From positions 1 to 39,611 of the forward strand of contig JAMOQH010000108.1 in NCBI GenBank assembly GCA_027064085.1: a stretch of 39,611 nt of DNA, written 5' to 3'. Numbering within the stretch: position 1 is the first letter of the stretch; each line of letters opens with the position of its first letter. The translations under genes and the position numbers were made by a program. This DNA comes from a bacterium (lineage in GTDB: Bacteria; UBP6; JAFGXH01). The notes under the pieces are model-generated. The model saw only the letters and a program-made list of their open reading frames with translations, had not been told where the DNA came from and did no database searches. Shown here in pieces: positions 5,069 to 15,287 of this stretch.

Positions 5069-6811
5069 TTATTTTTCCCAATCTATATTTGGATTAATAA
5101 TAATATTTCCTTTTTCATAATAAAATGAAATCACATTAATGAAAAATCTTTTATTATCAATAAATGGCTTCCCAAAAATTAATAATGGATTTTTATTCTT
5201 ATTGTTAAATTCCAAAATTATTCTATCAAAAACTTTTTTTCTATTATGTTGATATCTTTTAGGAACATCTCTATATCTAAACTTTAAAGAAACCAAATTA
5301 TCTTCTTCATCATAAATATCTATCACTACTGCTTGCGTTTCATAATCAAATATGGGTTCTTCATAACGAAATGGCTTTATCAATGAATAAAATGGAGTAT
5401 AATTAATATTTAATAAAGAATTATCCTTTCTAAATTGTAAATATTTGTTTTTTAAAATACTAAAATTACCATAACTTTCTAAATTTTCAAAATTATGATT
5501 TACTTTTATCTCTACACTTGAAACAAGAGAAGAAATAACTAATTCTCTGTTTATTTTAGTTCTTTTAATTATAACTTTTTTATTTAAAAAAGCATCGGTA
5601 GTAAAGCCTTCCCAAAGAGGCATAAAATGTAATTTATTTCTTGGATTAGAATAATTATCTTCTGATTTTAAGGAAATAAATAAAGACCTCGTAAAAACTT
5701 TGTTATCCTTAGATAAAAAATATGTTTTCAATATTGCATTTTCTCCAATTTCAATATATTCTTTTCCCACTCCATAAACAGTAATTTCTTTTACATCGAT
5801 ATATTCACTTCTATGTCTTGTTAAAGAATCTATCATGTTATAATCAGATGAATTTGCTCTATATAATCTTAACATCCTAAAAAACTTAATAATTTTATTC
5901 CTAAAACTATCTAAATCGAATTTAGGACTCTTATTTATAAATAAATTTAAATCTCTTTCTATTCCATTCATTAATTTCTCAAAGGCAGGAACTTCATAAT
6001 GAATTTTAAATGCTAATTTTTTTATTTTTTGAGTAATAGCAACAGTCATTCTTGTTAAACCAAGACTTATTATTTCAGAAAAAATATCTTCAACTTCTTT
6101 TAATAATTTTCCATCTATGGGCTTTAAGTCTTTTTTTACTAAATCACTTATTTGTTCTTTTTTTATAACATCATTTTCAATTAAATAATAAATCATTGAA
6201 GCAACATTGTGTTCACAATCTTTTTTTCCTTTACATGTAATATTATTACAATTGTTGTTTTCTAGAGGTCTTACTGAACGAAATGAAAAATTTACTTTTT
6301 CATCATTGAAGTCATTACTAAAAATAAAATCTAGCGAATTTATACTTAATTCTTTCTTTATATTAGAACCCAAAAAATATTTTATGCCTTTCATAAATTT
6401 AGCTTTTGTAAATCTCTTTTCTAATGATTTTAAATCAAAATCTAATAGTTCCTTATATTTATTTTTTATGTCAATTTCATTATTTTGTATTTCATATTGT
6501 TCATTAGCATTAGAGCTAATCCAAAGCCTTGCCCCTACCGTTTCTTTAATATAGAATATTGATATAATTCTGTGCCTACAAAATTTACTATCCGGGCATG
6601 TACATGTAATTTCCTCAACTTTAGTGTCTTTAATCATTACAGTATTTTCCTGAATTTGTAATTCTAATGGAGATTCATTAATTATTTTTATTTTATCTCT
6701 TAATTTTTCTAAATCTTTTTTAGACCTCTTTAGGTAACCTTTATTGCTTAATGATATTATGTAATCATCATCAAAGAGATTTAGAAACTCTAAAATATTA
6801 TTATCTATCAT
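5069..6811 (-). CDS. SWIM zinc-finger protein (YehQ-like)
   Basis: 580 residues from the ATG at 6811. A SWIM zinc finger CxCx5CxH is clear at Cys70, Cys72, Cys78, His80. A second, degenerate one (Cys193, Cys199, His201, missing the first Cys of the CxC pair) follows. The rest is mixed alpha/beta with no recognised domain. SWIM proteins of this kind are found beside VWA and MoxR ATPase genes (in E. coli, yehL-yehM-yehP-yehQ); the VWA partner is immediately upstream here. The cellular role of these sets is not established. An in-frame ATG at 6841 exists, but it lies inside a tandem repeat, and the ATG at 6811 has AGGGTGAG before it, so I choose the latter. Confidence 0.75.
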   Translation of the reverse strand: MIDNNILEFLNLFDDDYIISLSNKGYLKRSKKDLEKLRDKIKIINESPLELQIQENTVMIKDTKVEEITCTCPDSKFCRHRIISIFYIKETVGARLWISSNANEQYEIQNNEIDIKNKYKELLDFDLKSLEKRFTKAKFMKGIKYFLGSNIKKELSINSLDFIFSNDFNDEKVNFSFRSVRPLENNNCNNITCKGKKDCEHNVASMIYYLIENDVIKKEQISDLVKKDLKPIDGKLLKEVEDIFSEIISLGLTRMTVAITQKIKKLAFKIHYEVPAFEKLMNGIERDLNLFINKSPKFDLDSFRNKIIKFFRMLRLYRANSSDYNMIDSLTRHRSEYIDVKEITVYGVGKEYIEIGENAILKTYFLSKDNKVFTRSLFISLKSEDNYSNPRNKLHFMPLWEGFTTDAFLNKKVIIKRTKINRELVISSLVSSVEIKVNHNFENLESYGNFSILKNKYLQFRKDNSLLNINYTPFYSLIKPFRYEEPIFDYETQAVVIDIYDEEDNLVSLKFRYRDVPKRYQHNRKKVFDRIILEFNNKNKNPLLIFGKPFIDNKRFFINVISFYYEKGNIIINPNIDWEK

Positions 6812-6838
6812 ACTCACCCTATTAAATACAATACTTCG

Positions 6839-6950
6839 CATTCAGTTATCAAGAGACAACTCACTACATTCGGTTATCAAGAGACAACGCTGTGCATTCA
6901 CTTATCAAGAGACAACGCTGTGCATTCACTTATCAAGAGACAACGCGGTG
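6839..6950. repeat. Four 28-bp tandem direct repeats
   Basis: Units at 6839-6866, 6867-6894, 6895-6922 and 6923-6950 follow each other without spacers. All share the core TTATCAAGAGACAAC; units 3 and 4 differ by one base, units 1 and 2 are more diverged. They fill the gap between the VWA stop and the SWIM start, so they are transcribed as an untranslated spacer if the two genes are co-transcribed. Confidence 0.9.
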
Positions 6951-6960
6951 CGTTGTCTTT
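6936..6960 (-). other. Perfect hairpin at the end of the repeat array
   Basis: GACAACGC (6939-6946) and GCGTTGTC (6950-6957) are perfect inverted arms around a three-base loop, extended by one more A-T pair. The hairpin begins at the VWA stop codon. The GCGTTGTC arm could equally pair with the GACAACGC copies of repeat units 2 and 3. There is no T-run after it in either direction, so it is not a typical terminator; an mRNA-processing or stability element is possible. Confidence 0.7.
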
Positions 6961-8185
6961 ACATAATTATTCCTTTTATCCAATCTGCTAAGCTCTCTGG
7001 AGTTAATGAGGCAACATCAGCTCCCATTGAAGCTAATTTTTTTGCAGCTTGTTTATCGTAACCCCCTTTTGCATCTTCTGTTAAAGCTCCAATAGCAAAA
7101 AATTTTGCACCAGCCTCTAAAATATAAGCAACTTCAGTATAAAACTTTTTCATATCCCAATCATAAAAATCAGAAACCAATACTACTATTGTTTTGTGAG
7201 GATTATCTAAATATTTACCTGAAGTATAGCTTAAAGCTTTTGCAATATCAGTTCCACCTCCAAGCCTTATTTGAAACATTATTTCAACAACATCGTTTAT
7301 ATGGTCGCTTAAATCAACAACCTCAGTATCAAAAATTACTAATTTAGTATTCAAAACGGGTATTGAAGCAAAAATACTAGCCATAATAGAGCTATACAAA
7401 ACACTGTCCATCATAGATCCAGACTCATCAACAACTAAAATTAAATTCCACTTATTTTTTTTGTGAATATTTTCATAAAAGTATATATTTTCAAATGAAA
7501 TTTTCTGAGTTTTATAATCATAATTTTTTAAATTTTTATTAATTGTTTTATTAAAATCTAATTCTCCTGAAATTGAATAAACGGAAGATTTAGTTCTATT
7601 TATCAAAGTAGAAAATTTTTTACTAACCTTTTCTTCAAGTTTTAGTTTAATTTCATCAACAACTTGCTTTATTATTCTTTTAGCACTCATTAAAACATCA
7701 GGATTCATATGTTCTTTCATATTTAATATAGTTTCTAAAAGAGCTTTATTAGGTTCTAAGGACTCTAAAACTTTTTTATCAGTAAGCATTTCTTTTAGAT
7801 TATATTTATCTATTGCATCCTTCTCCATTATTTCAACAGTTTTTTTAGGAAAAGTTTTCCTTATTTTATTAAGCCAATTAAAAACAGAAGGAGAGCTTCC
7901 TTGCCGTCCAGCACCTTTTCCTTCTTTTCCTTCTCCTCCACCTACGCCTAATCCTGAAGCATTTCCATCATATAAACTACCGTATTCATATTCTCTTGAG
8001 TATAAAAACTCTAGAAGTCCATTCATTTCTGATAATGATTGCCCCCCAAAGTCACCTTCCATTCCTCCAAGATTAGTTTCAGAAGATTTCCCTAAAACTA
8101 ATTTCCAACAAGATTCAAGATATTTTTTCTCTTTTTCTATTATATCTATGTCTTTCATCTCAATCATATTTTTTATTTTCTCCAT
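6959..8185 (-). CDS. VWA-domain protein (YehP/CoxE-like)
   Basis: 408 residues. The C-terminal half is a von Willebrand A domain: the MIDAS motif DESGS starts at Asp253, followed by LGGGTDIAKAL and the LVSDFYDW Asp. The N-terminal half is helical, with a Gly-rich linker at about residues 75-100. Cytoplasmic VWA proteins of this type normally act with a MoxR AAA+ ATPase, as in metal-insertase systems; no such ATPase is present here. The SWIM gene is directly downstream, as in the E. coli yehP-yehQ pair. ATG at 8185 lacks a strong ribosome-binding site; an in-frame ATG at 8167 is an alternative start. Confidence 0.82.
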   Translation of the reverse strand: MEKIKNMIEMKDIDIIEKEKKYLESCWKLVLGKSSETNLGGMEGDFGGQSLSEMNGLLEFLYSREYEYGSLYDGNASGLGVGGGEGKEGKGAGRQGSSPSVFNWLNKIRKTFPKKTVEIMEKDAIDKYNLKEMLTDKKVLESLEPNKALLETILNMKEHMNPDVLMSAKRIIKQVVDEIKLKLEEKVSKKFSTLINRTKSSVYSISGELDFNKTINKNLKNYDYKTQKISFENIYFYENIHKKNKWNLILVVDESGSMMDSVLYSSIMASIFASIPVLNTKLVIFDTEVVDLSDHINDVVEIMFQIRLGGGTDIAKALSYTSGKYLDNPHKTIVVLVSDFYDWDMKKFYTEVAYILEAGAKFFAIGALTEDAKGGYDKQAAKKLASMGADVASLTPESLADWIKGIIM

Positions 8186-10382: not shown

Positions 10383-13300
10383 TTACTCATCACAAGCATC
10401 ACCTATTCCATCTCCATCAGAATCTACTTGTTCATTATTTGGATGAAGAGGACAGTTATCTTCCTCATCAGGAATACCATCTCCATCATCATCTGGATCA
10501 CAAGCATCTCCATTACTATCCCCGTCAGTATCTAATTGATTGGGATTAAAAGTAAATTCACAATTATCACTATCATCAGAGACACCATCTCTATCTTCAT
10601 CAGCATCAACCTCTTGACAACTTGCCTCTGAAGTATTTTGCTCACAAATCATCCCCCCATCACAGTGTTCCATTATTCCAGAACCTCTATAATGACAATC
10701 TGTTTCAGGATTGTGTTCACAAAAATATACATTATTTTCATAACAAATGGTATTTGCGTTTTCACCGTTTACGGTACAGTCATTTGCACACACACAAGTT
10801 GCATTTCCTTCTCCATTAATTTCACAAGTCTTTCCTTGCTCACAATAATCACCTGTTTTATACAGAAAACAACCATTTACATTAGTGCAAACTCCAATGC
10901 TTCCATCAGGCATACAAATATTTGGATCCCCTTCGCTACACCCATTATTACAAGCAACACACTCTGCAATTCCATTATTTACTTCACATAATTGACCATT
11001 AGGACAATCAGTAGCCTTAACTGTATTACATGCTCCATAAAGTTCACACTTATCTAAAATACCTATATTATTTTGAGTACAAGAACTTGGAGTAAAATTA
11101 TCAGGATTACATGTATCTTCACAAGGCTCACAAGAAGGCCAACCATAATTCTCTATGCATGATTCATCACTAGCACATACATTCTCAAGCTCTAAATATG
11201 AATAATGACAATGAAATCTTTCATTATAACCATCATCACATCTAAGCAATAAAGTTCCATCTTCTGAACATGAATAGCTATTTTCTTCTCTATTACATTG
11301 ATTTATACATTCACAACTTGCGGTTTGATTTTCTGGATTTTGAGTACAAATAGTTCCCTCATTACAAGTTTCTTTAACTGTCCATAACCAGCAACCATTT
11401 ACATCAGTACAAGATTCAACTTTACCATCAGCTGTACATCTATCAGGTGTAACTCCAGGCTGGCACTCATTTGTATCACAAGCAACACATTGAGGAGTTT
11501 TAGAACCTTCATCACCTATCATTTTGCAATAAGTATTTTCTTCACAAGCAGTTACATTAGGTTTATTACATTCTCCATATAACGAACATGTATCATTTAT
11601 ACCAGATTTATCATCAGAACAAAATGCTGTAAAATTTTCAGGGTCACATTGGTCTTGACAAGACCTACACTCAGGCCAATTATTCTCCATACTTAATTCA
11701 CACCAGCCTTGCATATCATACTCAGTACAATCTTGCCCTGGACTAAAATAAACACATTGATTTTCCCAATCTTTTTGACATCGACCAGCAAAATTACCAT
11801 CATTAGAGCACATATAATTTTCTATCACGCCATTTTCTTCATAATCACAATCATTTTTACATTCACAACTTGCAATATTATTACTTTCAACACATTTTTG
11901 AGATTCAACACAGTTATTTTCAACTAATTTTGCACATCCATGAACTAATTCACATGTTAATAATTTATCTCCACTGCAATGGCTTTCTCCCATAGTACAT
12001 TCAGGAGTACAAGACACACACTCCGGCCCATTATTAGTTACTTGGCATTCACTTCCACTATCACAATCAGTTATCATTTTCTTTGCACACCCACCATATT
12101 GGCTACAGGAACTAAATACTCCAAACCCATCTTCTGTACATGATGCAGTAAAGTTATTACTATCGCATTCTGAAAAACATGATTCACATGTAGCATCATT
12201 ACCAGTTTCAACACACCATTGATTAGATGCACAAGTTAAGTCTTGTGAATATAAACACATATTTGCATTTCTTGCACAACCAATAGCTTTCGTTCCGTCA
12301 TCAGAACAAGCCACACCAACTTCAGTACATTCATTATTACAATCACAAGTTGCAACTATTCCACTTGCATTACAAGTTTCACCTTCTAAACAAGCAATTG
12401 TATTATTTTTATAACATCCATTAACTAAAGCACAAGAATTTGCACCATTCTCATCACAAGTTGCGACAAAAGTATCAGGGTCACATTCATTACAAGACTC
12501 ACAACTATCAGTATTTTCATTACAAGTTTCACCTAAAGCACAAGAAGTTTCTACAAAGTGCAAACATGGAATTTCTGTAGTTGTACTACAAATAGAGAGT
12601 GTAAATTCTCCAGTACATTTCATCTCTCCAGCTGTACATCGATCAACACAACCTTCAACACAGTTAATTTCTTCCGCATTAGCATCACAATGAGTATTTT
12701 CTTGACAATTGTAGGTTTCAGCACTTAAATGATAACACATATCGCTTTCTAAACGACATTCACTATAGCTTGTAAAATCAGAACTACAAGCCTTACCATT
12801 AGTTGGAATGCATTCATCTTGACAATTTAAAACAACACAAGTTCCACCAGCTTCAAGAGGTTTACATCTTTCACCATTAGCACATTCATCTATAATTTTT
12901 TTATAACAGCCATTAGCATCTTCTACACAAGCTGTTATTCTTGAAGAATCTGAATCACAAACAGGATAATCACCTCTTGGGTCACATTCATTTTGTTGAG
13001 AACAATCAACTACACATTCAGCATTTGCATTTAATCTATAACCTTCATCACAAGCACATTGAACTTTTCCATTAGCAATAGAACAAACATGCTTATTGTT
13101 TTCAATACAAGAAACACCATCAACACATAACTCATTTAGAACACAATCACCATTTTCATCAGGATAATATCCATCTTCACATACACAAACATAACCATCT
13201 TGGTTTTCAACACTTAAATTACAAGTTGTTTTATGGTCTGTATTATCTACACATGGGTTAACGGTACAAGCATCAGGAGTATCTACAACACAATCTCCAT

Positions 13301-13835
13301 CATTTTCAAGATCATGATGATATCCATTAACACATTCACTACAATTTGTACCTTCATAATTATCTTCACATGAACAAGAAATCAAGCCATTAATAACATT
13401 ACAAACAGTTTTATGTCCACTAGTACATGAATTTTCACTACAAACTTCATTTGCAACACATTCTCCATTAACTTCATGAAAATTAATAGCACAATAGTCA
13501 CAATTTAATCCTCTGTAACCATCATCACAAGCACATTTAATTTTACCATCTTCAACAGAACATTGTGATTTATGAATATCTGTGCAAGATGTTGCTTTGC
13601 AAACTTCAATTTTAATACATTCATTATTAGAATTACAAAAATCAACATCACCATTACAATCATCATTAGAATTACATTTACCAATAGGTAGTTCACATTT
13701 ACCATTGTTGGTGTTACATACTTCTACCACACTACATTCTTTTTCACATTCTTTAACATCTGGACTAGCAGGACTATCCCCACAAGATATCGTCAAAAAT
13801 GATAAAAATATCAAAAACAACAAAAACTTCCCCAT
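10383..13835 (-). CDS. Giant Cys-rich lipoprotein: EGF-like modules, nested repeats, TSP3 calcium repeats
   Basis: 1150 residues. The signal peptide ends in the lipobox LTISC (Cys18), followed by Gly-Asp. Residues about 30-280 hold EGF-like modules of the [14 protein letters not shown] / [12 protein letters not shown] type. The middle and C-terminal part repeats Cys-rich modules with themes such as CDPxNFTA, NGC, and C-x-C pairs in a longer nested pattern. The last 70 residues are thrombospondin type 3 repeats (DxDGDGIxDxxDNCP, [14 protein letters not shown]), which bind calcium. It is surface or periplasmic, probably heavily disulfide-bonded; similar proteins are frequent in myxobacteria-like bacteria and may serve adhesion. 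Ligand unknown. ATG has AGGAG upstream. Monocistronic. Confidence 0.85.
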
Positions 13836-13994: not shown

Positions 13995-15287
13995 ATGGAT
14001 ATAAATGAAATTTTAAAAAATGCGATTAAGATGGGAGCATCTGATATACATTTAAAAGTTGGTAATAAACCAATTATGAGAATTAATGGATCATTAAAAC
14101 ACATGAATGAATTTCCTAGAATTTCACCTGATTTAATATTAAATATGGGTAATTCAATTATGTCTAAACAACAAAGAGAGCATTACAATAGAACTCACGA
14201 TTTAGATATGGCCTATGGCGTACCTAGCTTAGGAAGATTTAGGGTAAATATCTTTCAACAAAAAGGGGCAATGGGTATGGTTTTAAGAATTATACCATCA
14301 AAAATTAAAACTATAAGAGAATTGTTACTTCCTCCTATATTAGAAAAAATTTCAGAAGAACGAAGAGGATTAATTTTATTAACAGGAACAACGGGTAGTG
14401 GTAAATCAACAACTCTTGCGGCACTCATAGACCAAATAAACTCAACACGAGCCGACAATATTGTTACAATTGAAGACCCTATAGAGTTTTTAATAAGAGA
14501 TAAAAAATCCATAGTTAATCAACGAGAACTAGGTGTAGATACAATTTCATTTGCGAAAGCAATTAAATCAGCTCTTAGACAAGATCCTGATGTTATACTC
14601 GTTGGAGAAATGAGAGATTTTGAAACCATAGAAACAGCTCTTACAGCAGCAGAAACTGGCCACTTAGTTCTTTCAACATTACATACAATTGATGCAAGTG
14701 AAACAGTTAATAGAATTATATCAGTTTTTCCTCCACATCAACAAAAACAAGTTAGATTACAGTTAGCTTCTATTGTAAAAGCAGTTATTTCTCAAAGATT
14801 AGTTCCAACTAAAACTGGTGGTAGGGTTGCTGCGGTTGAAGTAATGGTATCAACCGGTAGAATTAAGGATATGATTGCTGACCCTCAAAGGACAAAAGAA
14901 ATTTCAGATGCAATTGCTGAAGGTCATAATAATTATGGAATGCAAACATTTGACCAATCACTTATGGCTCTTGTTTCTGATGGTACAATCTCGTATGAAG
15001 AAGCTATAAAAAACTCAAGTAATCCAGATGACTTTGCACTTAAATTTAGTGGAGTTGGCGGTAGTAGTGATAGCGGTTGGAAAGATTTTTCAAACAATAG
15101 AAAAGCTCAAACAAATCAAGTTACAGAAAATGTAAATAATTTTATTGATGATGATGTTGAATTAATTGATGACTTTGATGATTTATCTCCAATTGAGGAT
15201 GCTGAATTACTAGATGACATAAAACCTAAAAAACAAGAAAAAAAGAAGAATAAATTTAATTTTAGTAGCATGGATGACTTATTTTAA
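13995..15287 (+). CDS. pilT: Type IV pilus retraction ATPase PilT
   Basis: 430 residues. Hexameric ATPase that powers pilus retraction at the cytoplasmic face. It shows the PilT N-terminal DIHLKVGNKP segment, Walker A GTTGSGKST at 131-139, the Asp box (TIEDPIEF), Walker B (DPDVILVGEMRDFETIETALTAAETGH region) and the His box (STLHT). The length exceeds typical PilT (about 345-370) because of an Asp/Glu-rich tail from about residue 355 ending in a Lys-rich patch and SSMDDLF. PilU is the alternative paralogue; the AIRNLIRE-type retraction motif of classical PilT is not obvious. AGGAG precedes the ATG. First gene of pilT-TPR-dxr. Confidence 0.88.
   Translation: MDINEILKNAIKMGASDIHLKVGNKPIMRINGSLKHMNEFPRISPDLILNMGNSIMSKQQREHYNRTHDLDMAYGVPSLGRFRVNIFQQKGAMGMVLRIIPSKIKTIRELLLPPILEKISEERRGLILLTGTTGSGKSTTLAALIDQINSTRADNIVTIEDPIEFLIRDKKSIVNQRELGVDTISFAKAIKSALRQDPDVILVGEMRDFETIETALTAAETGHLVLSTLHTIDASETVNRIISVFPPHQQKQVRLQLASIVKAVISQRLVPTKTGGRVAAVEVMVSTGRIKDMIADPQRTKEISDAIAEGHNNYGMQTFDQSLMALVSDGTISYEEAIKNSSNPDDFALKFSGVGGSSDSGWKDFSNNRKAQTNQVTENVNNFIDDDVELIDDFDDLSPIEDAELLDDIKPKKQEKKKNKFNFSSMDDLF

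Follow-up and report, generated by a model that had tools for sequence, protein, structure and literature searches.

The window analysed here, a 39,611-nucleotide stretch of a bacterial genome, encodes a putative outer-membrane lipoprotein of 1150 residues, 153 of them cysteines, in which fourteen tandem eight-cysteine modules follow a nested three-module order. The best frame for this order is a complete triple, C-A-B, repeated three times from module M5 to M13 (12341-10791), with M1-M4 before it and M14 after it. The gene is laid out as follows.

10383..13835, minus strand: whole gene, putative outer-membrane Cys-rich lipoprotein
13782..13835, minus strand: candidate signal peptide and lipobox, Cys18 followed by GDS, read by eye
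13005..13754, minus strand: EGF-like Cys-rich part, residues 28-277, from Pfam matches below cut-off and PDB chain matches
12342..13004, minus strand: M1-M4, with eight Cys per module and not part of the triple repeat; the variant of the earlier note corresponds to M4
11862..12341, minus strand: super-unit 1, M5 (class C), M6 (class A, NFTA), M7 (class B)
11310..11861, minus strand: super-unit 2, M8 (C), M9 (A), M10 (B)
10791..11309, minus strand: super-unit 3, M11 (C), M12 (A), M13 (B)
10614..10790, minus strand: module M14, not demonstrably class C
10386..10613, minus strand: TSP3 calcium-binding-type repeats up to the C-terminus, from Pfam PF02412 and thrombospondin/COMP matches

The modules M1-M14 (13004-10614, residues 278-1074) are 50-67 residues long, all 14 contain exactly eight cysteines, and their consensus is CxNECx8CxxDGx6Cx5Cx7CxxGxxCxxNxxxAxC. 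The earlier note had placed the repeat at 10620-12500, a range in which it is indeed present but which falls short of the true array, and had called the protein giant, although its 1150 residues are unremarkable here, matched open frames of the same genome reaching 2369 residues. A promoter scan returned 27 against 23.8 ± 4.5 in shuffles, no better than the shuffles.

A three-module period in the array

Module pairs at lag 3 had a mean score of 87, compared to 58.7 with the order shuffled (p = 0.0003), and this was the sole significant lag among the 11 tested, which bears out the proposed recurrence of the same order of Cys-rich modules between copies. A period-3 statistic was significant both across all 14 modules (p = 0.0006) and across M4-M14 (p = 0.0008); periods 2, 4, and 5 gave p > 0.6 across all 14. 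At the DNA level, the ungapped repeat family D3 starts at 11077, 11614, 12133, and 12451, and the first two of its spacings (537, 519, and 318) agree with the super-period of ~520-540 bases first read from the sequence. The CDPxNFTA-like stretch was likewise found where it had been reported, in M6 (NFTA codon at 12155), M9 (11636), and M12 (module start at 11123). An "earlier variant near 12475" does exist, as M4, but is out of phase because the 318 bp separating it from the next copy downstream correspond to two modules; M4 is roughly as similar to class A as to class B.

This period is not mere cysteine spacing, since the observed statistic of 19.6 far exceeds the values obtained with cysteines held fixed and the remaining residues shuffled inside each module (2.8 ± 2.3, maximum 9.3 of 400 shuffles). 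The alternative named at the outset, a similarity in cysteine spacing only, thus does not reproduce the period, and the original observation stands. In frame C-A-B, unit alignments reached z 8.3-11.2 over Cys-fixed shuffles and, together with the lag-3 order, support a duplicated three-module super-unit between the EGF-like and TSP3 parts. Class A (M6, M9, M12) is the firmest, with pair z of 7.0-7.9, followed by class C (M5, M8, M11) at 4.7-5.6, and class B is uneven (M10-M13 7.0, M7-M10 4.9, M7-M13 1.0). C-A-B was chosen over A-B-C because the latter needs M14 as its final class C member, and M14 reaches z of only 0.6-2.1 with M5, M8, and M11.

Two phylogenetic trees, both including outside modules and both built from few columns and with long branches, give a graded picture of these classes. 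In a 71-module tree, class A (support 94/80) and class C (94/90) were recovered and a class B clade was absent; in a 33-module tree, class A was supported at 95/98 and class C was seen only as M8+M11 (95/91). For the latter tree, the p-AU values of a three-member C clade (0.52), a B clade (0.29), and M14 with C (0.46) neither establish nor reject any of these groupings. The VNGC module of the earlier note, our class B, recurs in order as described but forms no supported clade in either tree.

Module fold and resemblance to known domains

The AlphaFold2 model of one module, based on 28 aligned rows, was confidently predicted (pLDDT 95, pTM 0.70) and consists of beta strands (13-14, 20-28, 31-38 and 44-48, 51-55) with no helix. 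Because a three-module model reached only pLDDT 77 from 4 rows, the fourth of which (M3-M5) opens with a module of another class, rod geometry was not predicted. Foldseek returned nothing at E ≤ 0.001 with the single module, and nothing at E ≤ 0.001 with the triple model, whose matches were propellers and other unrelated folds. Among 497 modules, those lacking C5 also lacked C1 in 4/11 cases by script (p = 0.0034) and 6/11 by eye, which suggests a C1-C5 disulphide bond. A joint loss of C7 and C8 was discarded as a disulphide signal, as it mostly reflected partial profile matches with further cysteines just downstream.

No Pfam or NCBIfam model searched matches the module above its cut-off. For Myxo_Cys_RPT (TIGR04201), the whole protein was unmatched at E 1, and only 2 of the 28 aligned modules matched, below cut-off (best E 0.12). 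A Kazal domain is recognized by its helix, and a follistatin/Kazal likeness (FSTL1, E 0.53) was rejected since the pLDDT 95 all-beta model has none. Chicken CREMP (PDB 9pgb) also carries tandem short Cys modules, and the module profile matches its C-x5-C-x8-C part, but only ~20 of 56 positions match; with the E-value weakening from 2.6e-7 to 2.9e-4 under the wider profile, this was set aside as a short motif match.

A structural realignment of 115 chains yielded six at Z ≥ 2, with Avr4 (3.9), Blo t 12 (3.6), and Fsx1 (residues 453-508; 3.5) listed, values below 8 being ones that may reflect merely a common arrangement. The Avr4 and Blo t 12 entries are chitin-binding by their titles and presumably belong to CBM14; Fsx1 is archaeal. 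The authors of the Fsx1 paper note a likeness between domain IV of this protein and Der p 23, which binds chitin (PMC9259645). All three listed entries being CBM14-like, the modules could themselves be CBM14 (peritrophin-A)-like and the array a multivalent lectin for GlcNAc polymers (peptidoglycan, chitin), in which the triple would form a three-specificity register. We consider this model-based reading unlikely. It is favoured by the strands of the module model, which resemble the "three N-terminal and two C-terminal" arrangement given for CBM14 in PMC10619976, and by the occurrence of modules in a peptidoglycan hydrolase. The modules and CBM14 also share a tandem, Cys-rich, ~55-residue format. 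However, Z stays under 4 and the Foldseek E-value over 3, and Pfam CBM_14 (PF01607) matches none of the window modules even at E 10, its only match in the same genome being on contig C147. The window modules also have eight cysteines, and their spacing is unlike that of peritrophin-A, with C6-x5-C7 instead of x12 and different N-terminal intervals (PMC10619976). Finally, the tryptophan frequent in relatives ("GCxxW") is mostly missing from the window modules. As Z is weak and a CBM_14 match is absent from the modules, a stalk remains the best reading, and glycan binding is a lead.

Distribution of the module family

A profile of the 14 window modules matched 7/61 genomes, including its own, at E 0.001, as well as two further places in its own genome. 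Adding 14 relatives gave a wider profile of 28 rows, which all 14 window modules match, although they were used to build it. This profile matched 16/28 genomes of the same phylum (the low-GC group; own genome included) at E 0.01, 6/49 named Myxococcota-type and other genomes, and 52/195 genomes of the Myxococcus xanthus phylum at E 0.001. Across the fetched loci, 513 module matches were distributed over 104 frames, with longest runs of 15, 14 (the window), and 13, although these run lengths are no fair sample because the loci were picked for strong matches. No literature on the module was found in a limited word search of open-licence papers, which does not imply that there is none.

Nested order recurs across the module family with differing unit sizes, orders of 1, 2, or 4 being seen in arrays other than that of the window. 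Among the 16 other arrays of at least eight modules, 7 had a lag-1 excess (p < 0.05, uncorrected for 85 tests). A strong period of 2 was found in a 10-module Myxococcota-type array (locus L253, 1842-6047; p < 0.001 at lag 2 and p = 0.007 at lag 4), and a period-4 signal was seen in a 9-module array (L269, p = 0.007) and a weak lag 3 in another (L263, p = 0.03), all likewise uncorrected for 85 tests. In the window array, the lag-3 signal is stronger, and overall module similarity lower, than in any other of the 17.

Exported proteins of the Myxococcota type (e.g., the 1207-residue frame in L215 from a Myxococcales MAG, and proteins in L219-L222) share with the window protein the order and spacing of cysteines and the tandem arrays, which reach up to 15 modules in the fetched loci. 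They differ in often having a tryptophan after C5, and in arrays that are mostly lag-1 and singly period-2 or period-4, whereas the window array is period-3 and more diverged. The related proteins of L219-L222 have, by eye, a von Willebrand-like N-terminal part; they carry six or seven modules that score well, in apparently conserved order. Among same-phylum loci, L036, L038, L042, and L043 show long GDTGDTGNTG tracts beside a single module.

Closest to home, a 589-residue paralogue in the same genome (L057) has the candidate lipobox, EGF-like part, and modules in common with the window protein (E 2e-13). The module further occurs in exported-type proteins, namely lipoproteins, LTD/MAM proteins, and PQQ-propeller proteins, and four copies lie in a two-enzyme wall hydrolase with Amidase_2, Big_7, and Peptidase_M23 domains (L076, 1-3228). 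A similar array of four modules is found at locus L100. Extending glycan binding to the whole family, a widespread uncatalogued CBM14-like-fold module might form multivalent arrays that bind glycans, both in envelope lipoproteins and in wall hydrolases, with the triple as a class-specific recognition unit; we hold this broader proposal, based on the module model, to be slightly more doubtful still. If true, the triple rather than the single module would do the recognising, and three class specificities would be repeated in register.

Architecture, locus, and proposed stalk

Outside the module array, the candidate lipobox, LTIS-C18, in which Thr at -3 speaks against the assignment, was read by eye from the lipobox pattern, and lipoprotein paralogues carry an equivalent N-terminal layout (FISCGG, FIACGDS). 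The following Cys-rich part had seven Pfam matches, mostly EGF-type, none of which passes (best 20.1 bits, cut-off 27), and matched the PDB chains RIPR, MIC6, and netrin-G2 at E 7e-6 to 0.04, so it is named EGF-like only. By contrast, the TSP3 part passes Pfam PF02412 (37.8 bits, cut-off 25), the only family found in a Pfam search of the whole protein, and matches COMP at 3.8e-34, as well as thrombospondins. An EGF-like part precedes TSP3 in both the window protein and thrombospondin/COMP, but the former ends with TSP3, the thrombospondin C-terminal domain not being found by Pfam, and the eight-Cys modules in between are not of thrombospondin type.

The lipoprotein gene adjoins a divergently transcribed pilT-like ATPase gene (13995-15287). 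Orthologues of the latter in two sister genomes (93% and 82% complete) are 75% and 74% identical, and in both, other genes stand beside it and the Cys-rich lipoprotein gene is absent there. The ATPase has several further T2SSE-type matches in its own genome, and its matches in Myxococcota and other phyla are at most 66% identical. Elsewhere in the window (5069-8185), a SWIM zinc-finger protein adjoins a VWA_CoxE protein.

The closest functional analogy is with TraA of Myxococcus xanthus, whose Cys-rich tandem repeats are proposed to act as a rigid cell-surface stalk (PMC3325183). The window protein likewise has Cys-rich tandem repeats, but unlike TraA lacks PA14 (Pfam) and TIGR04201 or MYXO-CTERM (NCBIfam), ends in TSP3, and has a candidate N-terminal lipobox. 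By this analogy, it is most likely a disulphide-stiffened outer-membrane stalk. Lipidation at Cys18 would hold the protein in the (outer) membrane, and from this anchor the chain would lead through the EGF-like repeats and the fourteen all-beta eight-Cys modules to the TSP3 repeats. Because each module would be a self-contained unit closed by disulphides, if oxidised, we propose that the array forms a stiff, protease-resistant rod, its length set by module number, which would be exposed at the surface and whose calcium-binding TSP3 cap could touch a partner. The adhesin-like character that the earlier note gave the rod is a reasonable guess, and adhesion may be one of its roles.

Origin and age of the triple repeat

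The array may have grown by unequal duplication, with at least two events involving the three-module block C-A-B long ago, after which the three module classes would have remained distinct. Overall, we think it probable, with some room for doubt, that the gene encodes a stalk-like envelope protein held by a lipid anchor, the array of which grew by old three-module block duplication. The period could instead have arisen secondarily, from selection that keeps neighbouring modules unlike, without block duplication, and lag-1 modules are indeed less alike than random (49.2 vs. 58.6, p = 0.96). Yet such selection alone would not give a lag-3 mean z of 4.5 or class A z values of 7.0-7.9 over Cys-fixed shuffles, and we judge it improbable.

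Block duplication being the preferred origin, its age can be read from the three unit pairs in frame C-A-B. These have 67/160, 57/160, and 67/166 identical residues (36-42%), corresponding respectively to 32%, 24%, and 31% identity outside cysteines and to 55%, 51%, and 59% DNA identity, with longest exact DNA matches of 12, 10, and 13 bases. Identical four-fold sites amount to 8/18, 5/15, and 12/17, small numbers near the chance level of 0.44 expected from third-position composition. The window modules are also the most diverged of the 17 arrays of at least eight modules, with a mean pair score of 58, against 78 for the next array. The "recent growth" suggested by the earlier note, i.e., a recent rod expansion with unit number varying among strains, draws on a three-module period that does exist, but the copies are not homogenised, and this unit divergence in protein, DNA, and four-fold sites led us to reject it as highly improbable. 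Since units 2 and 3 are the closest pair, the second of the duplications may have come somewhat later than the first, with no duplication likely to be recent.

Taken on its own, this would add a further example to the modular, Cys-rich proteins of stalk type that have expanded through block duplication. The added value lies in the module, which is compact, confidently predicted, common to many genomes of two phyla, and uncatalogued where searched, and for which a curated family would annotate many now-nameless proteins.
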